Of a stretch of 64,000 bases of DNA, positions 21,461 through 32,309 are shown one piece after another. Under the pieces are notes generated by a model. The model saw only the letters and a program-made list of their open reading frames with translations. It was not told where the DNA came from and ran no database searches. How positions within the stretch are numbered: position 1 is the first letter of the stretch; each line of letters starts with the position of its first letter. This stretch comes from Clostridiaceae bacterium (GTDB lineage Bacteria > Bacillota > Clostridia > Saccharofermentanales > DTU023). Made by a program: the position numbers and the translations under genes. Location of the stretch: contig DUPV01000024.1 in the NCBI GenBank assembly GCA_012838135.1, forward strand, positions 1 to 64,000. The letters are read 5' to 3'.

Positions 21461-22903
21461 CTATATGTTATCAAATACTGCTTTTGACATTTGATCCGCT
21501 GAAATCAATATTTCTTGATCTTGAGGTAATTGCCATAATTTACTGACTGTTTGTGGAATTTCCTGCCCTGATAATGCGGCAATGACTTCAATTGATTGCC
21601 AATCGTCTGTCGGAATTTCCTTGCCTAAAGCCGCCAATGTTTTTTCTATAAACTTATAGGGACTGGCGGTACTGGCCACTAAAGTTAAATCGGTTAATCC
21701 GGCTTTAGCTATTGCTGAATAGCCAACAGCAGTGTGCGGATCAATCAAATAGTCATATGTATTATATACATGATTAATCGCAGTTGAAGTTTCGTTTTCA
21801 TCTGTCCAGGAAGCAGTTAAATCTAATAGCTCAGTATCAATTTGGAATTTACCGGAAACATTCAGCTCCTGCATTAAAGATTTAAGCCATTCACTATCCG
21901 GATTTTTTAAATACAAATAACGTTCCAAATTGCTGGCAACTAAAATATCCATCGAAGGTGATGAAGTTTTTACTAAGGTGCGATTACTGTCATAAATTCC
22001 TGTTTGCAAAAAATCCGACAAAACATTGTTTTCATTGGCTGCTAAATGAATTCTGCCCAAAGGTAATCCCATTGTTTTAGCATAACAAGCAGCTAAAATA
22101 TTACCGAAATTACCGGTTGGAACTATGATTGATATCGTTTCGCCGTACGACAAATCATTCGCTGCAACCGCTTGTAAATAGCTATTGATATAATAAATCG
22201 TCTGAGGAATCAGACGTCCGATATTAATCGAATTGGCAGAAGATAAAGCATATCCGCATGTTGCCACTTCAGCGGCAAACTTCTGATCGGAAAATAATTG
22301 TTTTACCCCACGCTGACAATCATCAAAATCACCTTGCAAAGCAATAGCTCGCACATTATCGTATTCACGACATAACATCTGTCTTTTTTGAAAAGAGCTG
22401 ACACCGTTATGCGGATAAAAAACGATAACTTTAAAATGCTCAACATCGGCAAAGCCTTCCATTGCAGCCTTGCCCGTATCACCCGAAGTTGCGGTTAGAA
22501 TCAAAATATCTTGTTGAAAGTCAAGCTGTTTCTTCGCAGCTTGCATCAAGTGCGGCAAAAATTGGAGAGCTAAATCTTTAAAAGCAAGAGTCGGTCCATG
22601 CCATAATTCTAAAAAACCGGTTTGTTTATTTATTCGGTGAACAGGAACAATTCGCGGATCATCAAAATTTTCACCATATGCGGTACTAACTATTTCCGCA
22701 ATAACTTGATCGGATAAATCAGAAAAGAATATTTTGAAAATTCTTTTGGCTATAGTCTGATAATCTGAACCGATCCATGCGGCAAAATCGATTTCAGGTA
22801 ATTCTTGCGGTACAAAAAGTCCACCGTCCGGAGCTAATCCCTGTAAGACAGCCTCGGAAGGTGAAAATAAATCATTTTTATTTCTGGTACTGTGATATTG
22901 CAT
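21461..22903 (-). CDS. thrC: Threonine synthase
   Basis: ThrC converts O-phosphohomoserine to threonine with PLP. The N-terminal YHSTRNK, SPSEAVLQGLAPDGGLFVP block is typical of the longer bacterial/fungal ThrC class. HGPTLAFKDLALQF (lysine near residue 109) is the PLP site, followed by LTATSGDTGKAAMEGF and VPTGNFGNILAA for phosphate binding. The 480-residue length fits this class. A GAGG site precedes the start. thrB lies about 140 bases downstream. Confidence 0.96.
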   Translation of the reverse strand: MQYHSTRNKNDLFSPSEAVLQGLAPDGGLFVPQELPEIDFAAWIGSDYQTIAKRIFKIFFSDLSDQVIAEIVSTAYGENFDDPRIVPVHRINKQTGFLELWHGPTLAFKDLALQFLPHLMQAAKKQLDFQQDILILTATSGDTGKAAMEGFADVEHFKVIVFYPHNGVSSFQKRQMLCREYDNVRAIALQGDFDDCQRGVKQLFSDQKFAAEVATCGYALSSANSINIGRLIPQTIYYINSYLQAVAANDLSYGETISIIVPTGNFGNILAACYAKTMGLPLGRIHLAANENNVLSDFLQTGIYDSNRTLVKTSSPSMDILVASNLERYLYLKNPDSEWLKSLMQELNVSGKFQIDTELLDLTASWTDENETSTAINHVYNTYDYLIDPHTAVGYSAIAKAGLTDLTLVASTASPYKFIEKTLAALGKEIPTDDWQSIEVIAALSGQEIPQTVSKLWQLPQDQEILISADQMSKAVFDNI

Positions 22904-22999
22904 TTTATCCTCGTCTATTAGTTAATTTACATTCTTGTCAGTAAAGTGTACATATTCGTTAGCGCTCGCACTCTCCACGCAGCTCTTGCGTCTGAAACT

Positions 23000-24334
23000 C
23001 TAACTTTTTGTAAGCTCGTTGGAAGTTTTCTGGAAGAATTCATTATAAATTGTTGATACGGCGTTTTCAAAATCATTATTTGCAATACCTACTATAATGT
23101 TAAATTCACTTGAACCTTGAGAAATCATGCGAATGTTAATTCCTGCTTCGGCTAAAGCTCCGAATACTCTTGCCGATACACCGGCTCGCATCGCCATATT
23201 CTCACCCACAACTGCCAACAATGCCAATCCGGGCATTATCTCGATACGATCCGGTGAACAATATATATCAATCTCTTCCAGTATCTTTCTTTCTTTGCCC
23301 TGCATACTTTCTTCTCGCACAATTAATGATACGGTATCTATTGAAGAGGGCATATGGTGGATTTGAATTCCGTTAGTTTCAAACACCGAGCACAATTTAC
23401 GAAAGAAGCTTAAATCTTCGGTCATCCGATATTTTTCAACATCTATAATCATAAAATCTTTCACGCCGGCAACTCCGGTCAGAATCGGATCCTCTTTTGT
23501 TCTTTTGGCTCTCGGTAAAATCAGCGTGCCCGGCTCATTGGGTGCATTGGTATTTAAAATATGAATCGGAATGCCTCTTTGTCTGGCGGGGAAAATAGCC
23601 TCATGATGCAAAACTGCAGCGCCCATATAACTCAACTCGCGCAATTCATCATAAGTTATAACGTGTAAAGGCATCGGATTCTCCACAATTCTCGGATCAG
23701 CTGCCAAGAAGCCTGAAACATCTGTCCAGTTTTCATATTTTTCAACAGAAAGTGCGGATGCTACAATCGAACCGGTAATATCCGAACCGCCTCTGGAAAA
23801 AGTAACAATTGAACCATTTTCTTGTGCACCATAGAATCCCGGAATTACGAAGCAAGCATCTTTAATATGTTCTTTAATCAAAATACGGGTCATATTCTCA
23901 TCATATTTACCATTTTGGTCAAAACGAATTATATCAGCTGCATCAAAAAATTTATAACCGAGATATGCTGCCATTAATTTTGCCGAAAAATATTCACCGC
24001 GACTGGCAGCATAATCTCTGGATGCTCCCGTAATCAGCTTTTGCTCAACTTCATTCAATTCAGGTTCAAGATCAATTGCCAAATTCAAATCATTTTGAAT
24101 TTTCAAAAAACGTTCTTTAATTGAAGCAAAAACTTCTTCACCACCAATTCCTATTTCCATTAATTGATGGCATAAATACAGCATATCGGTAATTTTATGG
24201 TCTTCGGTAAAACGCTTGCCGGGAGCAGACACAATTACAATCTTTCTTTCACTATCTGCCTTAATAATCGACTTTACTTTTTTGAATTGGGAAGCATCAG
24301 CACACGATGTTCCGCCAAATTTTGTCACTTTCAT
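23000..24334 (-). CDS. Aspartate kinase (threonine-cluster copy)
   Basis: This is a second aspartate kinase, 444 residues, with a longer insert than the LysC copy. MKVTKFGGTSCADASQFKKV is the nucleotide site and TFSRGGSDITGS (about residue 187) the aspartate site; RGEYFSAKLMAAYL is also conserved. ACT domains occupy roughly residues 305-440 (IDVEKYRMTEDLSFFRKL; LLAVVGENMAMRAGVSARVF). Its place beside thrC and thrB suggests threonine or methionine demand controls it, but the effector cannot be read. GGAGATG precedes the start. Confidence 0.93.
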   Translation of the reverse strand: MKVTKFGGTSCADASQFKKVKSIIKADSERKIVIVSAPGKRFTEDHKITDMLYLCHQLMEIGIGGEEVFASIKERFLKIQNDLNLAIDLEPELNEVEQKLITGASRDYAASRGEYFSAKLMAAYLGYKFFDAADIIRFDQNGKYDENMTRILIKEHIKDACFVIPGFYGAQENGSIVTFSRGGSDITGSIVASALSVEKYENWTDVSGFLAADPRIVENPMPLHVITYDELRELSYMGAAVLHHEAIFPARQRGIPIHILNTNAPNEPGTLILPRAKRTKEDPILTGVAGVKDFMIIDVEKYRMTEDLSFFRKLCSVFETNGIQIHHMPSSIDTVSLIVREESMQGKERKILEEIDIYCSPDRIEIMPGLALLAVVGENMAMRAGVSARVFGALAEAGINIRMISQGSSEFNIIVGIANNDFENAVSTIYNEFFQKTSNELTKS

Positions 24335-24372
24335 TTTTCATCTCCACTTTTATCTATTGAAATTAATCTAAT

Positions 24373-25398
24373 TTAAATATCTTCAACTTGGTTGTTGTTA
24401 CCATTAATCTGTTTATTATAATTTACTAATCCAATTCCTGCCATCACTAAAATTAAGGCAGCTATTAAGTTGCTTTGCAAAATGTTTTCTTTCAAGACAA
24501 TTGCTGAGCCTATTGTTCCGACTACAGGAATTAAACTTTTAAACACACCTAATTTTGAAACAGGATGATATTTTAACATTGTTGTCCATAATGCAAAAGC
24601 GACTGCACTTAAAGCACTCAAATAAATCAAAATCAGCCAAGCTGTATAATTACGCGGACTCAACGAACCGCCAAGGCTCAATCCGGTAATAATCAAAACC
24701 AAGCCGCCCAAAATAAAATTCCATCCGCTCAGTAAGCGTGGATGATTACGTTTGACAAACAATTTGTTGATCAATGTTCCGATTGATGTTGAAAGTGCCG
24801 AAAGCAACATCAGGCCATCACCTAACCAGTTGAAGTCCAGAGTAGTGCCTCCGCTGATATTCAAAACAATCACACCGATGAAACCGATAATGCAACCGAT
24901 TGTTTTTGAAAAATTAAGTTTTTCATTAACAAAAATAAAACTTGCCAAAATTACTTCCATAAATGCAGCTGTTGAAGATATAATCGAACCGATTGCTCCT
25001 GAAGTATTGGCAAGTCCGACAAAGAAAAAACCGTATTGAAAAATTGTTTGCGGTATAGCAAGAATTAAAGAATCACGCCATTGTGCTGTGTTTTGCGGGA
25101 ACGGGTTGATTTTTTCAGTAATTGCCGTGAACAAAATCATCAATAAACCGGCAAGAAAAAATCTGATACCGGCAAATAAAAGTAAGGACGGTACGGCATC
25201 CGGCGCAGCATTGTCGATTTGAAACAAGCTATAGCCGGTCTTTACCGCCGGAAAAGCACTGCCCCAAAGGGCGATGCATAAAAGTGTCGCTGTTAGCCAA
25301 ACAATAGGCTTAAGCCAAAACTCTGCTTTGGTTTTTTCCGTCTGATTTTGCTCTTGTATCATGATTTTTTGTGCTCTGCCGACATTTTTATTTTTCAC
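24373..25398 (-). CDS. EamA-family (DMT) exporter
   Basis: This is a ten-segment membrane protein of the drug/metabolite transporter superfamily with two EamA repeats. The first repeat starts with ALWGSAFPAVKTGYSLF; the second with FNWLGDGLMLLSALSTSIGTLINKLF and the closing LKENILQSNLIAALILVMAGIGLV. The start appears to be GTG, nine bases after AAGAGG. Members export amino acids or other metabolites. Lying just downstream of threonine genes suggests amino-acid efflux, but this is only context. Confidence 0.85.
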   Translation of the reverse strand: MKNKNVGRAQKIMIQEQNQTEKTKAEFWLKPIVWLTATLLCIALWGSAFPAVKTGYSLFQIDNAAPDAVPSLLLFAGIRFFLAGLLMILFTAITEKINPFPQNTAQWRDSLILAIPQTIFQYGFFFVGLANTSGAIGSIISSTAAFMEVILASFIFVNEKLNFSKTIGCIIGFIGVIVLNISGGTTLDFNWLGDGLMLLSALSTSIGTLINKLFVKRNHPRLLSGWNFILGGLVLIITGLSLGGSLSPRNYTAWLILIYLSALSAVAFALWTTMLKYHPVSKLGVFKSLIPVVGTIGSAIVLKENILQSNLIAALILVMAGIGLVNYNKQINGNNNQVEDI

Positions 25399-25467
25399 GC
25401 ATTACATCCTCTTAAAATAAAAACATCAAACAGACAATCGTTTTGCATTGATTTCACCATATTATTA

Positions 25468-27363
25468 CTAACTGTTAACCTCATTTTTCCCAATTACATT
25501 GTCAGTAGTTTGAAACACATTTTCATTAGCGGTAAGTCCGTATGAATCAATTACAGGTAACGCAAAAATTGAAACAATATGGCTATTCTGTTTGTCTAAA
25601 GCATCTAATAATGTTTGACTAACTGCTAACGTAATATTGGCGTCAACTAAAAACCAAATTACTTCTTTTTCCGGCTGAAGTTGCATCGACTTGCTGAGCC
25701 ATGTTCCAGCCCTTGCATCACGACCATGTAAGATTGTCGCACCGGTTGAACCGGCAGACCTTGCCAAAGCGATAACATCTTCCGTATAGCCACGTTCTAC
25801 CACACAAAAAATCAAATCTTTTTGTTCACCTGAAATTTGATCCGAGGCAATCGCACAAATTTCTTTTCGATCGACAGGAGCAACATCTTCCGAAATATGC
25901 TTTGAACGCATGGTTTGAATTTTATTTATCGAACCCAAAATCATAATACTTAAAACCGGCGTCATCGCAATCATCGCAATAATACCGAATCCGTCACGCA
26001 AAACATCAGCTGTAGGTATACTGTCGGCTACACCTTGGGCAAATGCCAAAACAAATGTTGCACTCATCGGACCTGATGCAACTCCGCCGGCATCAAACGC
26101 TATGCCCACAAAGATCGGATCAACAAAATAAGATAATATAATTGCTATAACAAAACCGGGTAACAAAAAGAACCATAACTGAACTTGAGGTGTCATAATC
26201 TTAACCATTGACAAAGCAATTGCAATTCCGACACCGATTGAAAGAGTCCCTTTCAAAACCGTAATCGGTATATTACCCGCAGTCACATCTTCAACCTGTT
26301 CACCCAGAACATGAACCGCCGGTTCAGCCAGCACAACCATCATACCTAATAAAAGCCCGAAGACAGGAAGCATCTCTAAATATCTGTCCGCCAATCCCAT
26401 GCCCAGAATACGGCCCATATCCATAAATCCTTCATTTGCTCCAACCAAGAACAAAGTCAAACCGATAATTGTATAGACCAAACCGCGAACAATTCTGACT
26501 AATTCCTTACGTTTAACTTTAAATTTGAAAAAGTTGAAAACAAAGAATAAAGCTGCGATCGGAGCTAAAGCCTTAAGCGATTCGATTAAAGTATATTGCA
26601 TGGCTGAGAAAATCGGAGACCACACCTCAGTTGAAGTAACAAATTCAACTGTTTCACCATGAATGTTTTGTTGTCCGGTAAGAACTGAAATTAACATTAC
26701 AGCCAAAATCGGTCCGGCACTCATTGCACCAACCATACCAAAAGAGTCTTCTTCCGCTGTTTTACCGCCTTTAGTCCGCGACAAACCGACTGAAATTGCG
26801 AGCACAAACGGGGTAGTCAAAGCACCGGTTGTCGCACCGGAGGCATCAAACGAAATCGCTAAAAATTCTTCTGAAACTTGAGTGCCTAAGACCAAGATTA
26901 CCAGATAGACCAAAGTCATCATTACATTATATTTAAAATTACTGAGAATTCTGATTGAAGCAATTGAAATAAGTACGCCGACACCGACAGAAATCATAGT
27001 GACTAAAAAACCTGCATCTAGCGTTCCGCCGGAAGCACTCTCTACTTGATCTCCGAGAATTAATATATCCGGTTCGGCAATCGTAATTAAAAAGCCGAGT
27101 ATAAAGCTAAGCAAAATTGTTTTAATCAAACTCTTACTTGTTGCTATTTCACGTGCCATATGATAGCCAATCGGTTCCATACTCTGATCCACACCCCAGA
27201 GAAAAATCGAAAGTCCGGCAAATACCAGAAATGCCCCGACAAAAAATCTTTGCATAACCGGAATATCTATCGGAATAAATGTCAAGCCTAAGATCGCTAC
27301 AAAGATTACGATCGGGATTAAAGATTGAGAAACTTCTTTGGTTTTTGATTGTAATATATTCAT
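25468..27363 (-). CDS. Duplicated DUF1538 membrane protein with C-terminal PII-like domain
   Basis: This is a 631-residue polytopic membrane protein made of two similar DUF1538 halves. The halves match in blocks such as IAEPDILILGDQVE / LAEPAVHVLGEQVE and ISFDASGATTGALTTPFVLA / IAFDAGGVASGPMSATFVLA. After the second half comes a soluble tail (about residues 510-631), with DLIFCVVERGYTEDV and TILHGRDARAGTW resembling a PII-like fold. DUF1538 pairs have been reported, as I recall, to act as cation/proton antiporters (UmpAB of Halomonas). Here the two would be fused into one chain. A double PII-like protein is encoded 9 bases upstream, so nucleotide- or ligand-controlled ion transport is a fair inference. 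Confidence 0.82.
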   Translation of the reverse strand: MNILQSKTKEVSQSLIPIVIFVAILGLTFIPIDIPVMQRFFVGAFLVFAGLSIFLWGVDQSMEPIGYHMAREIATSKSLIKTILLSFILGFLITIAEPDILILGDQVESASGGTLDAGFLVTMISVGVGVLISIASIRILSNFKYNVMMTLVYLVILVLGTQVSEEFLAISFDASGATTGALTTPFVLAISVGLSRTKGGKTAEEDSFGMVGAMSAGPILAVMLISVLTGQQNIHGETVEFVTSTEVWSPIFSAMQYTLIESLKALAPIAALFFVFNFFKFKVKRKELVRIVRGLVYTIIGLTLFLVGANEGFMDMGRILGMGLADRYLEMLPVFGLLLGMMVVLAEPAVHVLGEQVEDVTAGNIPITVLKGTLSIGVGIAIALSMVKIMTPQVQLWFFLLPGFVIAIILSYFVDPIFVGIAFDAGGVASGPMSATFVLAFAQGVADSIPTADVLRDGFGIIAMIAMTPVLSIMILGSINKIQTMRSKHISEDVAPVDRKEICAIASDQISGEQKDLIFCVVERGYTEDVIALARSAGSTGATILHGRDARAGTWLSKSMQLQPEKEVIWFLVDANITLAVSQTLLDALDKQNSHIVSIFALPVIDSYGLTANENVFQTTDNVIGKNEVNS

Positions 27364-27372
27364 GTAATCCCC

Positions 27373-28014
27373 CTACGCTTGATAACTGCCCGTAATACGC
27401 GAAACAGGTAACACAAAAATGATTCCTTTGCTGGGTTTATCTAAATCCATTTCAGTTATTAAACATTCTTTAATCGGTTTGACCGATTCACTTTTGACCA
27501 AAAGCATTACAATGTCTTTTTGCGGCTCAATAATCATCGGGAAAAATGTTTCAGCCGGAACACCCGCACCACGACCATGGATAATCGTACCGCCAACTTC
27601 TCCGATTTGGCGAACATGGCGCATAACTTCTCTGCCTTGTCCTTCATTTACTACTACAAAAATACATTGATAATCAAAGCATTGCGGATCAAATCTTTCA
27701 TTTTCTGAAAGATTGCTCAAATGACCGAAACGACTGATCGGAATCGAAAAGGCAATCCCATGTCTTTTTCGCTGAATATTGAAACTCTCAAGCATCATCT
27801 CATGAATAGCATCTTCAAATCTTGACTCTATCGGTAAAAATATTATTTCTTTTTGAGTTTCCTCAAGACCGAGAATTTCTAAAAATTTGTTGGAAACAGT
27901 TCCCTCACCGAGCATAACAACTCCGCCCGTTAAACCCAATATCCTTATTTCGCTTAAAACTTGTTTAGCCTTGCCGCGATTGAGCACACTCAAGAATAAA
28001 GATTGATTATTCAT
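27373..28014 (-). CDS. Tandem PII-like signalling protein
   Basis: This is a 213-residue soluble protein with two PII-like units. Unit one runs from LFLSVLNRGKAKQVLSEIRILGLTGG to ISRFGHL, and unit two from YQCIFVVVNEGQGREVMRHVRQIG to VSRITG. Both show the beta-alpha-beta order and the GG(T/V)I(I/V)xGxG-type loop (VGGTIIHGRGAG) of PII relatives, and both end in a hydrophobic strand followed by VSR/ISR. It lacks the GlnB T-loop tyrosine context, so I call it PII-like rather than GlnB/GlnK. AAGGAG precedes the start. It is encoded immediately before the DUF1538 protein, whose tail is of the same kind, so the two very likely form a complex. Confidence 0.75.
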   Translation of the reverse strand: MNNQSLFLSVLNRGKAKQVLSEIRILGLTGGVVMLGEGTVSNKFLEILGLEETQKEIIFLPIESRFEDAIHEMMLESFNIQRKRHGIAFSIPISRFGHLSNLSENERFDPQCFDYQCIFVVVNEGQGREVMRHVRQIGEVGGTIIHGRGAGVPAETFFPMIIEPQKDIVMLLVKSESVKPIKECLITEMDLDKPSKGIIFVLPVSRITGSYQA

Positions 28015-28109
28015 GATTTTCTCCTTTTATTGTCTATTCAAAAATATTACTTCCTATATTGCGGTTGTTTAATTACACGAAATATCTGTTTTGATTTCAG
28101 ATTCTCTTT

Positions 28110-28736
28110 TTACCATTGTTCAATTTCTTTACGTTGCTTGTACTTTTGTTTAAGCCCATGCCGCTCACTCAAATTATCTTTTATATCCGCTAAGGTCACA
28201 CCGCTTTGATTAAGCAACAAAGTTAAATGATAGAGTAAATCACTGGCTTCATTAATAATTTCCGTCTTATTATTATTTTTGACGGCGATTATCGTTTCGG
28301 TCATTTCTTCACCGGTTTTCTTGAGGATTTTATCAATACCCTGTTCGATTAAATATTTAGTATAAGAACCATCTTGCGGATTGTTGATCCGATCTTGAAT
28401 CGTTTTTTCCAAAATTTCCAAAGTAAAATAATAATCGTCAAAACAGCTGACATTTCCTAAATGACAAGTCGGTCCGTCAGGTTTAACCCGTATTAATAAA
28501 GCATCCTGATCACAGTCAAGGCACATACTGATTACATGCTGGAAATTCCCGCTGGTTTCACCTTTCTTCCATAACTCTTGTCGTGATCTGGAAAAAAACC
28601 AAACCACTTGATCTCGTACCGTTAAGTTATAGGCCTCCTCATTCATAAAACCGTTCATTAAGACTTGACCGGTATCATAATCTTGTAAAATAACCGAAAG
28701 TAAGCCGTTGTTTTTTGAAAAATCAGGTTGCATCAT
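28110..28736 (-). CDS. hisIE: Bifunctional phosphoribosyl-AMP cyclohydrolase / phosphoribosyl-ATP pyrophosphatase
   Basis: This protein performs steps two and three of histidine synthesis. The N-terminal HisI domain shows VLMNGFMNEEAY, WFFSRSRQELWKKGETSGN and the zinc-site stretch CLDCDQDALLIRV...GPTCH. The HisE domain (about residue 115 on) shows SYTKYLIEQGIDKILKKTGEEMTETIIA and EASDLLYHLTLLL. I choose the start MMQPDFSK; the ORF extends 56 codons further upstream, but that part looks like leader sequence and has no homology to HisI. It is the last gene of the histidine operon. The ribosome site is weak (GAGATCCTA before ATG). Confidence 0.94.
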   Translation of the reverse strand: MMQPDFSKNNGLLSVILQDYDTGQVLMNGFMNEEAYNLTVRDQVVWFFSRSRQELWKKGETSGNFQHVISMCLDCDQDALLIRVKPDGPTCHLGNVSCFDDYYFTLEILEKTIQDRINNPQDGSYTKYLIEQGIDKILKKTGEEMTETIIAVKNNNKTEIINEASDLLYHLTLLLNQSGVTLADIKDNLSERHGLKQKYKQRKEIEQW

Positions 28737-28793
28737 TAGGATCTCATTTCTTTCTTTGTTTTGCTTTAATTGTCTTTGTATATGATATATAAA

Positions 28794-28901
28794 GGTGGTA
28801 ATGTTGCAACTCTTGCCATAATTTTTCGACATTAGTTGTTTTATTGCCACCTTTTCAAGGAATTTAAGATTAATTAGTGACAATCTCGCAACTTTTGCCA
28901 C
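28794..28901 (-). repeat. Two adjacent inverted repeats in the hisIE leader
   Basis: GGTGGTAAT (28794) and ATTGCCACC (28843) are complementary apart from one position, with a second inner pair CAACT/AGTTG. GTGACAA (28877) and TTGCCAC (28895) form another 7-bp stem with one wobble. Both lie between hisF and hisIE, and the motif GGTGGCAA recurs in them. They could be a processing or attenuation element. I could not match them to a named RNA class. Confidence 0.35.
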
Positions 28902-28954
28902 CATTTTTTATTATTAAATTGTTTTAATGTCACTTTCTAAAATACCTCTCATTT

Positions 28955-29728
28955 CTATAGCCGTACTTCAATTCCGGCTTCCGCAAGAGACTTTTTCAAT
29001 TCTGATATTTCAACTTCATTTTGATGAAAGATTGAAGCAGCCAAACCGGATTTTACAGATGTCTGTTTAAATAATTCAACAAAATCTTCTATCTTACCGG
29101 CACCGCCACTGGCAATTAACGGTTTGTCCGTATATTTTACTGCTTCTTTGAAAAACTCCAAATCAAAACCTTGTTTGGCACCATCGAAATCAATTCCCGT
29201 AATTAAGAATTCACCTGCTCCCAGCTTGGTAAATTTCTCCAACGCACTGAAAACTTCCCAATCCGATTTTTTTGTGCCGCCATGGGTATAAACATAATGC
29301 TTACCGGATTCAGAATCTTGTTGAATGTCAAAAGCAACAATTATTTTTTCCGAACCGAATTTCGAGGCGGCTTCTTCGATAAAAAGCGGATTATTCAGAG
29401 CTGCACTGGCAATGCTCACTTTATCTGCACCAGCTTGAAGAATTCTGGCAACATCTGCCAAAGAAGCAATGCCACCGCCAACAATCAATTCGATATCAAT
29501 TGCAGAAGAAATCGCGTAAATCAAATCAATATTGAAATCTGCACCGGTTTGAGTTTTTGAAATATCCAATATTGCCAATTCATCGGCACCGGTTACACAA
29601 TAATGTTTTGCCATTGTCAAAGGATCACCCATTTCTCTCAGACCGACAAAATTTGTACCTTTGACTACTTTTCCGTCTTTTAAATCCAAACATGGAATTA
29701 TTTTGCGAAGATTATTTTCTGTTTTCAT
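28955..29728 (-). CDS. hisF: Imidazole glycerol phosphate synthase cyclase subunit
   Basis: HisF joins PRFAR with ammonia to form imidazole glycerol phosphate and AICAR. The TIM barrel shows KIIPCLDLKDGKVVKGTNF at the N-terminus (catalytic aspartate near residue 16), VGGGIASL and ADKVSIASAA phosphate loops, and TGIDFDGAKQGFD (second catalytic aspartate). The 257-residue length is normal. The ammonia-supplying partner HisH, usually encoded between hisB and hisA, is absent from this operon. The upstream gap to hisA is about 120 bases. Confidence 0.96.
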   Translation of the reverse strand: MKTENNLRKIIPCLDLKDGKVVKGTNFVGLREMGDPLTMAKHYCVTGADELAILDISKTQTGADFNIDLIYAISSAIDIELIVGGGIASLADVARILQAGADKVSIASAALNNPLFIEEAASKFGSEKIIVAFDIQQDSESGKHYVYTHGGTKKSDWEVFSALEKFTKLGAGEFLITGIDFDGAKQGFDLEFFKEAVKYTDKPLIASGGAGKIEDFVELFKQTSVKSGLAASIFHQNEVEISELKKSLAEAGIEVRL

Positions 29729-29846
29729 ACTATATTCTTTATGACTTTCTATTACCCTCTATCGCTCAGGGCTATCTATAACAAGTTTTTATCATTTGTT
29801 GCCATTAATGGTCTGCACAATCACTATCTAAATTGCCGGATTTATA

Positions 29847-30551
29847 CTAAATAATATTATCCCAAAAATTCGGTTTATGACCGGCTTTTCCAACTATAGC
29901 CTCTGTTATACCAAGTTCAAATAAATGGTCGAGATCATCCTTGTTGCGCACACCGCCGCTTGCAATGACTTTGTGCCGCGTCAAGTTATTAATTCTCGCC
30001 GTATTTGTAAAATTAGGACCTTGATCCATGCCATCCTTATTAATATCCGTATAAATAATACCGGCTAACGGAAGATTCTCAACTAAAGGCAAATATTGAT
30101 CTACAGTCATTCCGCTATCTTCTGTCCAGCCGTTGATAAATATTTGATCAACTCTCGCATCTAAACCGACAAAAATCCTTTCAGGATAAAGACCGGTCAT
30201 TTCTTTAAGCCATTCTATATCCGTAATCGCTCCGGTTCCGAGAATAAAATAATCGATACCTTGTTTTGCATAATTTGCAATAGATTCTGCATTACGCAAA
30301 CCACCGCCGATTTGCAAAGGCAAATCGGTCAAAGTTTTTAACTCTGAAATCAATTGTATTTCTTTGGCTTCTTGTGCTTTTGCTCCGATTAAATCAATTA
30401 TATGAATTCTTGCAACTTGTTGAAATTTACTGTAGAACTTAATTGCTTCTTGAGGTGTACGTTGCATCAAAGATTTTTGTTGATAATCACCTTGCCTCAG
30501 ACGCACATTTTGACCGTCAATTAAATCAATAGCCGGAATAATCTTTATCAT
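29847..30551 (-). CDS. hisA: ProFAR isomerase
   Basis: HisA carries out the Amadori rearrangement of ProFAR to PRFAR. The half-barrel repeats give IIPAIDLIDGQNVRLRQGDY at the N-terminus with the catalytic aspartate, LQIGGGLRN, YFILGTGAITD and YTDINKDGMDQGPN with the second aspartate, then VIASGGVRNKDDL. The length (234) is usual. AAAGGATT precedes the start. hisB lies about 40 bases upstream and hisF downstream. The acidic residues and order in the operon make this secure. Confidence 0.95.
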   Translation of the reverse strand: MIKIIPAIDLIDGQNVRLRQGDYQQKSLMQRTPQEAIKFYSKFQQVARIHIIDLIGAKAQEAKEIQLISELKTLTDLPLQIGGGLRNAESIANYAKQGIDYFILGTGAITDIEWLKEMTGLYPERIFVGLDARVDQIFINGWTEDSGMTVDQYLPLVENLPLAGIIYTDINKDGMDQGPNFTNTARINNLTRHKVIASGGVRNKDDLDHLFELGITEAIVGKAGHKPNFWDNII

Positions 30552-30593
30552 TAAATAATCCTTTCGTATTCTACAAACTGACGCAAACCAAAA

Positions 30594-31172
30594 TCATTCA
30601 ATAACCCCTTTGGACGATGGCACTCCGCCATCAGTCTCACTTAGAGCAATTCTTAAACTCCGGGCAAAAGCTTTGAAAACAGCTTCGATTTCATGATGTG
30701 TATTGCCCTTTTTCAGCAAATCGATATGCAAAGTCATTCGGCTATTCATCGCGACGGCATTGAAAAACTCCTCAACCAATTCAACATCAAAATCACCGAC
30801 TTTCGCCTTGGAAAAATCTGCCTGAAAATTCAGATGCGGTCTGCCGGATAAATCCAGAACAACTCTTGCCAATGACTCATCCATCGGTAAATAAAAGAAA
30901 CCGTATCTTTGATAAGATTTTTTTGCAGTATACAGTTCGCGAATCAATTGACCAAGAACAATTCCGATATCTTCCACCGTATGATGAAAATCGACTTCCA
31001 AATCTCCATCAGCAATCACTTCCAAATATAAACCCGAATGAAAACTGAACAAAGTAAGCATATGATCAAAAAATCCGATTCCGGTATTGATTTTCGATTC
31101 AGCGGCCAATCGATCTTCTGTTAAACTGACTTCTATTGTGGTTTCTAAAGTCGAGCGTTTTTTTGTTAACAT
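30594..31172 (-). CDS. hisB: Imidazoleglycerol-phosphate dehydratase
   Basis: HisB dehydrates imidazole glycerol phosphate. It is the monofunctional form of 192 residues, without the fused phosphatase seen in enterics. Metal-binding blocks are clear: GIGFFDHMLTLFSFHSG (about residues 32-48), DFHHTVEDIGI (residues 65-75), DLSGRPHL and GNTHHEIEAVFKAFARSLR (near 150-170). GGAG lies 12 bases before the ATG, a long spacing. The lack of a fused phosphatase means another protein must dephosphorylate histidinol phosphate. Confidence 0.96.
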   Translation of the reverse strand: MLTKKRSTLETTIEVSLTEDRLAAESKINTGIGFFDHMLTLFSFHSGLYLEVIADGDLEVDFHHTVEDIGIVLGQLIRELYTAKKSYQRYGFFYLPMDESLARVVLDLSGRPHLNFQADFSKAKVGDFDVELVEEFFNAVAMNSRMTLHIDLLKKGNTHHEIEAVFKAFARSLRIALSETDGGVPSSKGVIE

Positions 31173-31204
31173 AGTACATCACATCTCCATTTATATTATA
31201 AATA

Positions 31205-32188
31205 TCAATATTTTTGTTTCCATTCCATAATAGCTTGATTTAATGCCGGATAGTCATCAAGTTTGATAATTGAATAACGTGCTGCATTTTTCAAAATCGG
31301 GGTGTCATATGTCCGAGGCAAAAATCCTTTGCTTATTAAAAATTCTGCTAAATCTACGGCTAAATCGCCAAAAGTAAAAATATAATTAGCAAGTGACGGC
31401 TTAATTGTTATCAGATCATTAACTTGAGCCAAAGCCTTCGTTAATTGTTTTTTGCTTTCAAATTGATAATTTTTAAATTCAGCTAATTTTTCTTTGTTTG
31501 AAAATAATTCACTTGCCAAATTTAAAGACAATGAGTTTAAAGTATACGGGTGATTTATACTATTAATTTTAGTAAAGGTTTCGCCCTGTGCAATTGCCAA
31601 GCCGATTCTTAAACCTGCCATGCCGTATAATTTGCTTAAGGTTCGCAAAAATACGATATTCTGACCTTGTGGTCTTTCATAGTCTACTGCAAAATCTATA
31701 TAGCATTCATCCAGAACCAAATAGCCATCAACTTCCGCCATTGTATCTGCCAAGAGTTGCAATTCCTCTGTTTTGAACATTACTCCTGTCGGATTATGCG
31801 GATTGGAAATCATAAACAAAGACGGTTTACGTTCTTGAATAGCCTGCACTGCTTTAGCAAAGTCAAAAGAAAAATCCGGTTCACAATCAACAGTTAACAG
31901 CTCCGGCAAAACTTGTTCCGTATATATTTTATACATTACAAAATCAGGATTAAAAGCCATGACACCGTTTTGACCGAGAGTCATTACTGCTTTCTGAATC
32001 CATTCGTCTGAACCGTTTGCTACTTCAATTTCAGACGGATTCAAATCATAAGCCTTGGCATAAATATTGATAAAGCGTTGTCTTTCTTGATCAGGATACT
32101 GATTATAATCAGTATTTTGAACAACTTTAATAATTTGTTCATTACTTAATGGTTTCAGCGGACAGGTATTGCGATTCATTATGATCAT
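31205..32188 (-). CDS. hisC: Histidinol-phosphate aminotransferase
   Basis: HisC transfers an amino group to imidazole acetol phosphate with PLP. It is a fold-I aminotransferase of 327 residues, with NGSDEWIQKAVMTLG, SNPHNPTGVMF, VLDECYIDF and FLRTLSKLYGMAGLRIG, in which the lysine of LSKLYG holds PLP. The start at MIIMNRN is preferred: GGAG lies seven bases before this ATG, while the ORF-track TTG lies on the ribosome site itself. It is slightly shorter than the usual 350-residue HisC but contains all core motifs. Confidence 0.93.
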   Translation of the reverse strand: MIIMNRNTCPLKPLSNEQIIKVVQNTDYNQYPDQERQRFINIYAKAYDLNPSEIEVANGSDEWIQKAVMTLGQNGVMAFNPDFVMYKIYTEQVLPELLTVDCEPDFSFDFAKAVQAIQERKPSLFMISNPHNPTGVMFKTEELQLLADTMAEVDGYLVLDECYIDFAVDYERPQGQNIVFLRTLSKLYGMAGLRIGLAIAQGETFTKINSINHPYTLNSLSLNLASELFSNKEKLAEFKNYQFESKKQLTKALAQVNDLITIKPSLANYIFTFGDLAVDLAEFLISKGFLPRTYDTPILKNAARYSIIKLDDYPALNQAIMEWKQKY

Positions 32189-32309
32189 ATTTTTCTCCAA
32201 TGTTCAGTTATCTTAAACCTATAATATTTGATTATAGGCAAATCAAAACACATGTTTTCGAACTAATTTATATTAAGATAATTAAAATGATTAAACCAAT
32301 ATTTTAATC

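Follow-up and report, generated by a model that had tools for sequence, protein, structure and literature searches.

The locus described here raises the question of why a membrane protein of the DUF1538 family should end in a PII-like unit and lie next to a gene for two further PII-like units, and whether the three units act as one regulator of one transporter. It is found in a 64,000-nucleotide stretch of clostridial DNA, referred to below as the window. A sequence-only reading of the window had described the two proteins as a possible ligand-gated ion exchanger whose PII-like units might close into a three-unit ring.

The gene pair and its PII-like units

An ORF check of the window recovered both genes on the minus strand. 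The upstream gene of the pair (27373..28014) encodes a 213-aa double PII-like protein, pp, and the downstream gene (25468..27363) encodes DDp, a membrane protein of 631 aa in which two fused DUF1538 halves are followed by a PII-like unit at the C terminus; the assignments draw on the ORFs, Pfam, profiles and fold models. The sequence read directly places a 9-base spacer between them (27364..27372, minus strand), with an AGGGGG ribosome-binding-like run that overlaps the TAG stop of pp, and this overlap suggests that pp and DDp are translationally coupled. Scans for promoters and terminators gave matches at chance level only. Within positions 21461-32200 of the window, the module is flanked by a histidine-biosynthesis run on one side and by genes for an EamA-type permease, an aspartate kinase and a threonine synthase on the other. 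In one relative (L007), a 1238-aa ORF on the opposite strand is inserted directly behind the module.

The pp protein consists of PII-like unit 1 (residues 5-97; 27724..28002, minus strand) and PII-like unit 2 (residues 115-209; 27388..27672, minus strand), both delimited by profiles and alignment. Its second half scores 28.8 bits against the Pfam P-II family (PF00543), for which the cut-off is 25, and P-II is matched by 62 of the 63 aligned pp homologues. A profile of pp homologues retrieves solved PII proteins with a best E-value of 2.9e-7. The AlphaFold2 model of pp (pLDDT 81, pTM 0.80) contains two beta-alpha-beta-beta-alpha-beta units, and the top PDB matches of this model in Foldseek are GlnK/PII proteins. 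Thus, the sequence-only reading was right to place a double PII-like gene 9 bases from the transporter gene.

The tail of DDp forms unit 3 (residues about 514-612; 25528..25824, minus strand). BLASTP aligns it with both halves of pp (E=8e-9 and 8e-14), just as the halves of pp align with one another (E=1e-13), and none of 2000 shuffled controls reached the scores of either the tail-pp or the half-half alignments. Compared with Pfam by itself, the tail gives no match. Its assignment as PII-like follows instead from its homology to the pp units, from unit-profile matches at 1e-23, from the ferredoxin-like order of strands and helices that it shows in an 848-aa model, and from the PII matches that this model, which contains the tail, gives in Foldseek. 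The soluble C-terminal PII-like unit that had been read from the sequence is therefore upheld, and the units belong to the PII superfamily by fold and by homology to PF00543.

The 848-aa model is of a read-through chain of pp and DDp in which the TAG stop is read as Q, folded with transporter alignment rows. Its membrane part has a pLDDT mostly >90, and the upstream PII units are poorly modelled. An alignment that combined transporter-only with PII-only rows, meant for folding a pseudo-complex, was dropped when MAFFT set the PII rows on membrane and tail columns.

The DUF1538 transporter part

That one chain holds two DUF1538 halves, as the sequence-only reading had it, is borne out by two stretches of PF07556 in DDp (E=1.1e-122), with a score of 407.6 bits against a gathering score of 22.6 and matches in both halves. 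Half 1 covers residues 9-237 (26653..27339, minus strand) and carries the acids E97, within an AEP motif, and D173; half 2 covers residues 259-490 (25894..26589, minus strand) and carries E347 and D424. Among 229 DUF1538 halves, the membrane Glu (E97 and E347 of DDp) is 99% conserved and the Asp (D173 and D424) 97%. The DUF1538 pair UmpAB of Halomonas zhaodongensis is a Na+(Li+,K+)/H+ antiporter for which both halves are required, and in the literature searched we found no second experimentally tested DUF1538 pair (PMC5484666). DDp misses the cut-offs of the UmpA and UmpB equivalogs NF041627 and NF041628 by far (150.7 of 490 and 140.5 of 500 bits, respectively), so cation antiport can be assigned to DDp only at the level of the family; the conservation of the Glu and Asp residues supports cation/proton exchange without proving it. 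Foldseek against the PDB gave no convincing match between the membrane part of DDp and a solved structure, and a PDB profile search with this part returned chance hits only.

DUF1538 and PII-like genes are coupled across Clostridia and allied Bacillota

We searched 245 genomes of the class, 86 of which have DUF1538, and 300 genomes of the phylum, 101 of which have it. PII-like units are adjacent or fused to DUF1538 in 119 of the 121 distinct loci from the same class and phylum, a count of loci that were fetched mainly from strong DUF1538 matches and classified by unit and DUF1538 profiles, with weak matches outside it. The two loci that lack a PII-like unit lie 27 and 87 bp away from the end of a contig. 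This is the genetic linkage of PII gene and transporter that characterises PII-regulated transporters. Together with the retention of three units across different layouts, it strengthens the functional link between the PII-like units and the transporter that the sequence-only reading had drawn. It also corrects the impression that the pairing is a local oddity: almost all loci of these bacteria show the coupling, and what is truly odd about the window is its third unit.

Most DUF1538 loci combine two DUF1538 halves with two PII units. The commonest layout (60 loci) is a fused DUF1538 pair with two single PII proteins or one double PII protein, and the series of layouts also includes split UmpA/UmpB-like pairs accompanied by a single PII unit, by two, or by a fused double one. 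A minimal form, seen in L067, L072, L075, L081, L088, L090 and L127, consists of an unfused DUF1538 protein of about 231-265 aa and, after it, a single PII-like unit of about 105 aa.

Clustering of neighbouring genes revealed no other conserved neighbour of DUF1538 loci beyond close relatives, and Rfam scans of 80 loci revealed no recurrent riboswitch ahead of DUF1538 operons. At one split DUF1538 locus (L102:2913-3085), a c-di-AMP riboswitch starts about 60 bases past the last PII-like gene, the one instance of this kind among the 80.

Three PII units per transporter in the family of the window

DUF1538 is present in 31 of the 38 genomes of the window's family. In this family, 29 loci could be evaluated because no contig end truncates them, and 28 of these carry exactly three PII units per fused transporter. 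The three-unit loci occur in three layouts: 8 have the arrangement of the window (pp+DDp), 15 have a single chain of three units beside the fused transporter gene (DD+ppp), and 5 have a double unit and a separate third one (DD+pp+p). The single chains are mostly about 335-420 aa long, belong to two genera of the family (codes g365 and g366) and were seen in L147-L152 (L147, L148, L149, L150, L151, L152), L154 and L196-L203. The one exception, L205, has two PII units and belongs to another transporter lineage. Sister families of the order have two PII units in four loci, and the pp+DDp layout was seen in three further families of the class (codes f9, f23 and f25).

In the transporter tree, the pp+DDp loci form a single clade with 100% support, next to sister loci of the ordinary two-unit kind. 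To account for the three-unit state, every bootstrap tree requires two changes, and one suffices in 0% of them. Forcing a single three-unit clade costs 23 log-likelihood units, and by the AU test (p=0.085) a single origin is not rejected. Two origins of the third PII unit are thus favoured, not proven. In the unit tree, which has long branches and few columns, DDp tails group with most third units of ppp chains at 93 support, a grouping that may or may not reflect a common origin of all third units. One locus, L126 (G318:C152), has an apparent tandem DD-pp DD-pp array, and after a duplication of this kind, fusion of the second copy's units could yield the inverted pp+DDp order.

A residue pattern that suggests two usable clefts and one dead junction

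In GlnK, the nucleotide lies between subunits, with residues 38, 39, 87, 88, 90 and Phe92 of one subunit forming face A and Thr29', 64', Arg101' and Arg103' of the next subunit forming face B (PMC8395244). We aligned all units to E. coli GlnB, whose sequence served as a numbering ruler only, and took Gly35 and Gly89 as the markers of face A, and Gly27 and Thr/Ser29 as those of face B. In the window, unit 1 keeps face A and has Val at the T29 position, unit 2 keeps both faces, and unit 3 keeps the G27/T29-type face B and has lost the G35/G37/G89-type face A. The pp+DDp and DD+ppp loci as a group show the same distribution: face A of unit 1 is retained in 26 of 27 and its face B in 3 of 27, unit 2 keeps both faces in 27 of 27, and unit 3 keeps face B in all 28 and face A in none.

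When the units are placed in the ring order 1-2-3, clefts 1A.2B and 2A.3B are intact and cleft 3A.1B is without one or both of its sides, an exact pattern found in 27 of 32 loci of all layouts. Such a distribution of residues is compatible with a single ordered ring in which two clefts are usable and the third is dead. The reverse ring order is less parsimonious, as the losses would then spoil two clefts while the partner faces stay fully conserved. The three-unit ring of the sequence-only reading thus gains indirect support, namely the count of three across three layouts and the loss of complementary faces at one junction. The dead-cleft pattern is not shared by all layouts: in the DD+pp+p loci, units 1 and 2 retain both faces, as unit 3 mostly does. 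Moreover, face B is already weaker in the first units of ordinary two-unit systems (0.58 kept), which indicates that part of the pattern is older than the third unit.

The ligand of the PII-like units

Canonical PII proteins (GlnB/GlnK) have Lys90, Arg101, Arg103 and a full-length T-loop. In the units studied here, these three residues are replaced almost everywhere, usually by Ile at position 90 and by Gly at position 101, and the T-loop, at 14-15 residues, is shorter than the canonical 20. Given the changes at positions 90 and 101 and the short T-loop, canonical sensing of ATP and 2-oxoglutarate is unlikely. Second units and single-unit systems conserve the positions of Gly35, Lys58, Gly89, Phe92 and Thr29 to about 80-100%. 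Because the Phe92 and Thr29 positions persist and Lys90, Arg101 and Arg103 are gone, an adenine ligand without triphosphate contacts, of the AMP, cAMP or c-di-AMP type, appears more likely than ATP with 2-oxoglutarate. By analogy, SbtB binds AMP and cAMP (PMC8352866). The genome of the window encodes a diadenylate cyclase. In this genome, which is 93.8% complete, we found neither a Pfam P-II match besides the module nor a match to the AmtB/ammonium transporter family.

A proposed module and its alternatives

We propose, with a probability of about 0.5, that pp and DDp form a cation/proton antiporter of the UmpAB kind that is gated by an asymmetric pseudo-trimer of PII units; we infer the transport itself, the direction in which it is controlled, the class of ligand and the ring. 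The two proteins would act as one module composed of an UmpAB-type antiporter with fused DUF1538 halves and a cytosolic PII-like sensor. The sensor would have three non-equivalent units, two contributed by pp and the third by the transporter tail, which would close into an ordered PII-type ring 1-2-3 that the tail holds to the transporter. A small molecule would occupy two of the three clefts, 1A with 2B and 2A with 3B, leaving 3A/1B vestigial, and its binding would shift the short T-loops and so switch antiport. The narrower proposal, that a single asymmetric ring of three different PII units with two clefts and a dead junction sits on one antiporter and evolved perhaps twice, is put forward tentatively.

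A serious alternative to the ring, although we consider it rather unlikely, is that the units regulate the transporter without making one ring each: the tail would be a tether, and homotrimers or stacked rings would span several transporters, as in GlnK-AmtB and SbtB-SbtA. The PII-regulated transporters in a 2023 review all appear to act as trimers (PMC10710835), SbtA-SbtB being one such case (PMC8352866); most DUF1538 loci have two rather than three units per DUF1538 pair; and the separate third unit of the DD+pp+p loci, which mostly keeps both faces, could self-trimerise. However, a constant count of three over three layouts in one family would not be expected if units paired only with their own kind, and the face losses in units 1 and 3 are complementary, so that every cleft in a tail homotrimer would be defective. 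It is improbable that the PII-like units have ceased to bind a ligand and serve a structural purpose, stabilising the transporter or helping it to assemble. The replaced effector residues, the shortened T-loop and the three cleft positions missing from the tail agree with such a role, but the conservation of Gly35, Lys58, Gly89, Phe92 and Thr29, and of both faces of unit 2 in 27 of 27 pp+DDp and DD+ppp loci, suggests that binding has been retained.

Two further alternatives concern what is carried and what pp does. The fused clostridial DUF1538 proteins might carry another solute rather than exchange Na+ or K+ against H+, a possibility that we regard as unlikely though quite conceivable. As far as we found, a single DUF1538 pair has been tested (PMC5484666), DDp lies far under the UmpA/UmpB equivalog cut-offs and its membrane part matches no solved structure; against these points stand the acidic residues and glycine motifs conserved across the family. 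That pp is a general nitrogen regulator lying beside the transporter by chance is very improbable. Annotation pipelines do label such neighbours P-II family nitrogen regulator, but the link to DUF1538 is nearly universal, the canonical effector residues and T-loop are gone and the genome is without AmtB. With no other Pfam P-II match in the genome either, canonical nitrogen regulation was rejected.

Comparison with known systems

In principle, by analogy, the proposed module may work like GlnK-AmtB or SbtB-SbtA. It shares with GlnK-AmtB the genetic linkage of a PII-fold protein to a membrane transporter (PMC10710835), but its transporter is of another family, its T-loop is short and lacks the canonical effector residues, its PII units come in multi-unit chains with a third one attached covalently, and the genome has no AmtB. 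SbtB is likewise a PII-like protein encoded with a secondary transporter, and its clefts hold an adenine nucleotide rather than being under 2-oxoglutarate control, as we infer for the ligand here; however, SbtB assembles from three identical single units and sits on a trimeric SbtA, compared with three non-identical units per transporter in the present case (PMC8352866), and the DUF1538 part has no detected match to a solved transporter. UmpAB has the same Pfam domain in both halves, conserved membrane acids and two homologous halves that are needed together, whereas UmpA and UmpB are separate proteins for which no PII is described and DDp has fused halves, a PII tail and a double PII-like neighbour (PMC5484666). 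The lactose transporter LacS also has a regulatory domain fused covalently to a secondary transporter, but its EIIA-like domain is unrelated and acts through phosphorylation control rather than a PII-type cleft (PMC10710835).

According to the 2023 review, the use of PII on transporters seems restricted to those able to act as trimers (PMC10710835). If correct, the proposed module would replace the textbook picture of a homotrimeric PII on a trimeric transporter and would show PII control of cation/proton exchange. None of the papers on DUF1538 or UmpAB that we read connects the family with PII, although subscription papers or preprints may do so, and an asymmetric three-part PII ring on a DUF1538 transporter is not described in the literature searched. 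Few signalling proteins are as widespread as PII. Almost all the DUF1538 transporters that we examined in Clostridia and allied Bacillota come with a PII-like partner, which provides a concrete hypothesis of regulation for a large and unstudied class of antiporters that are probably under ligand control. The three-unit lineages offer a natural experiment, with single-chain and split pseudo-trimers whose clefts could be switched off separately and in which the signal-transmitting cleft could be identified.

Outside Bacillota, the order DUF1538-DUF1538-P-II occurs on alphaproteobacterial plasmids of Methylocystis rosea and Chelativorans. The plasmid operons lie at L128:4270-6061 and L129:4729-6067, and the Chelativorans plasmid is typed as conjugative.
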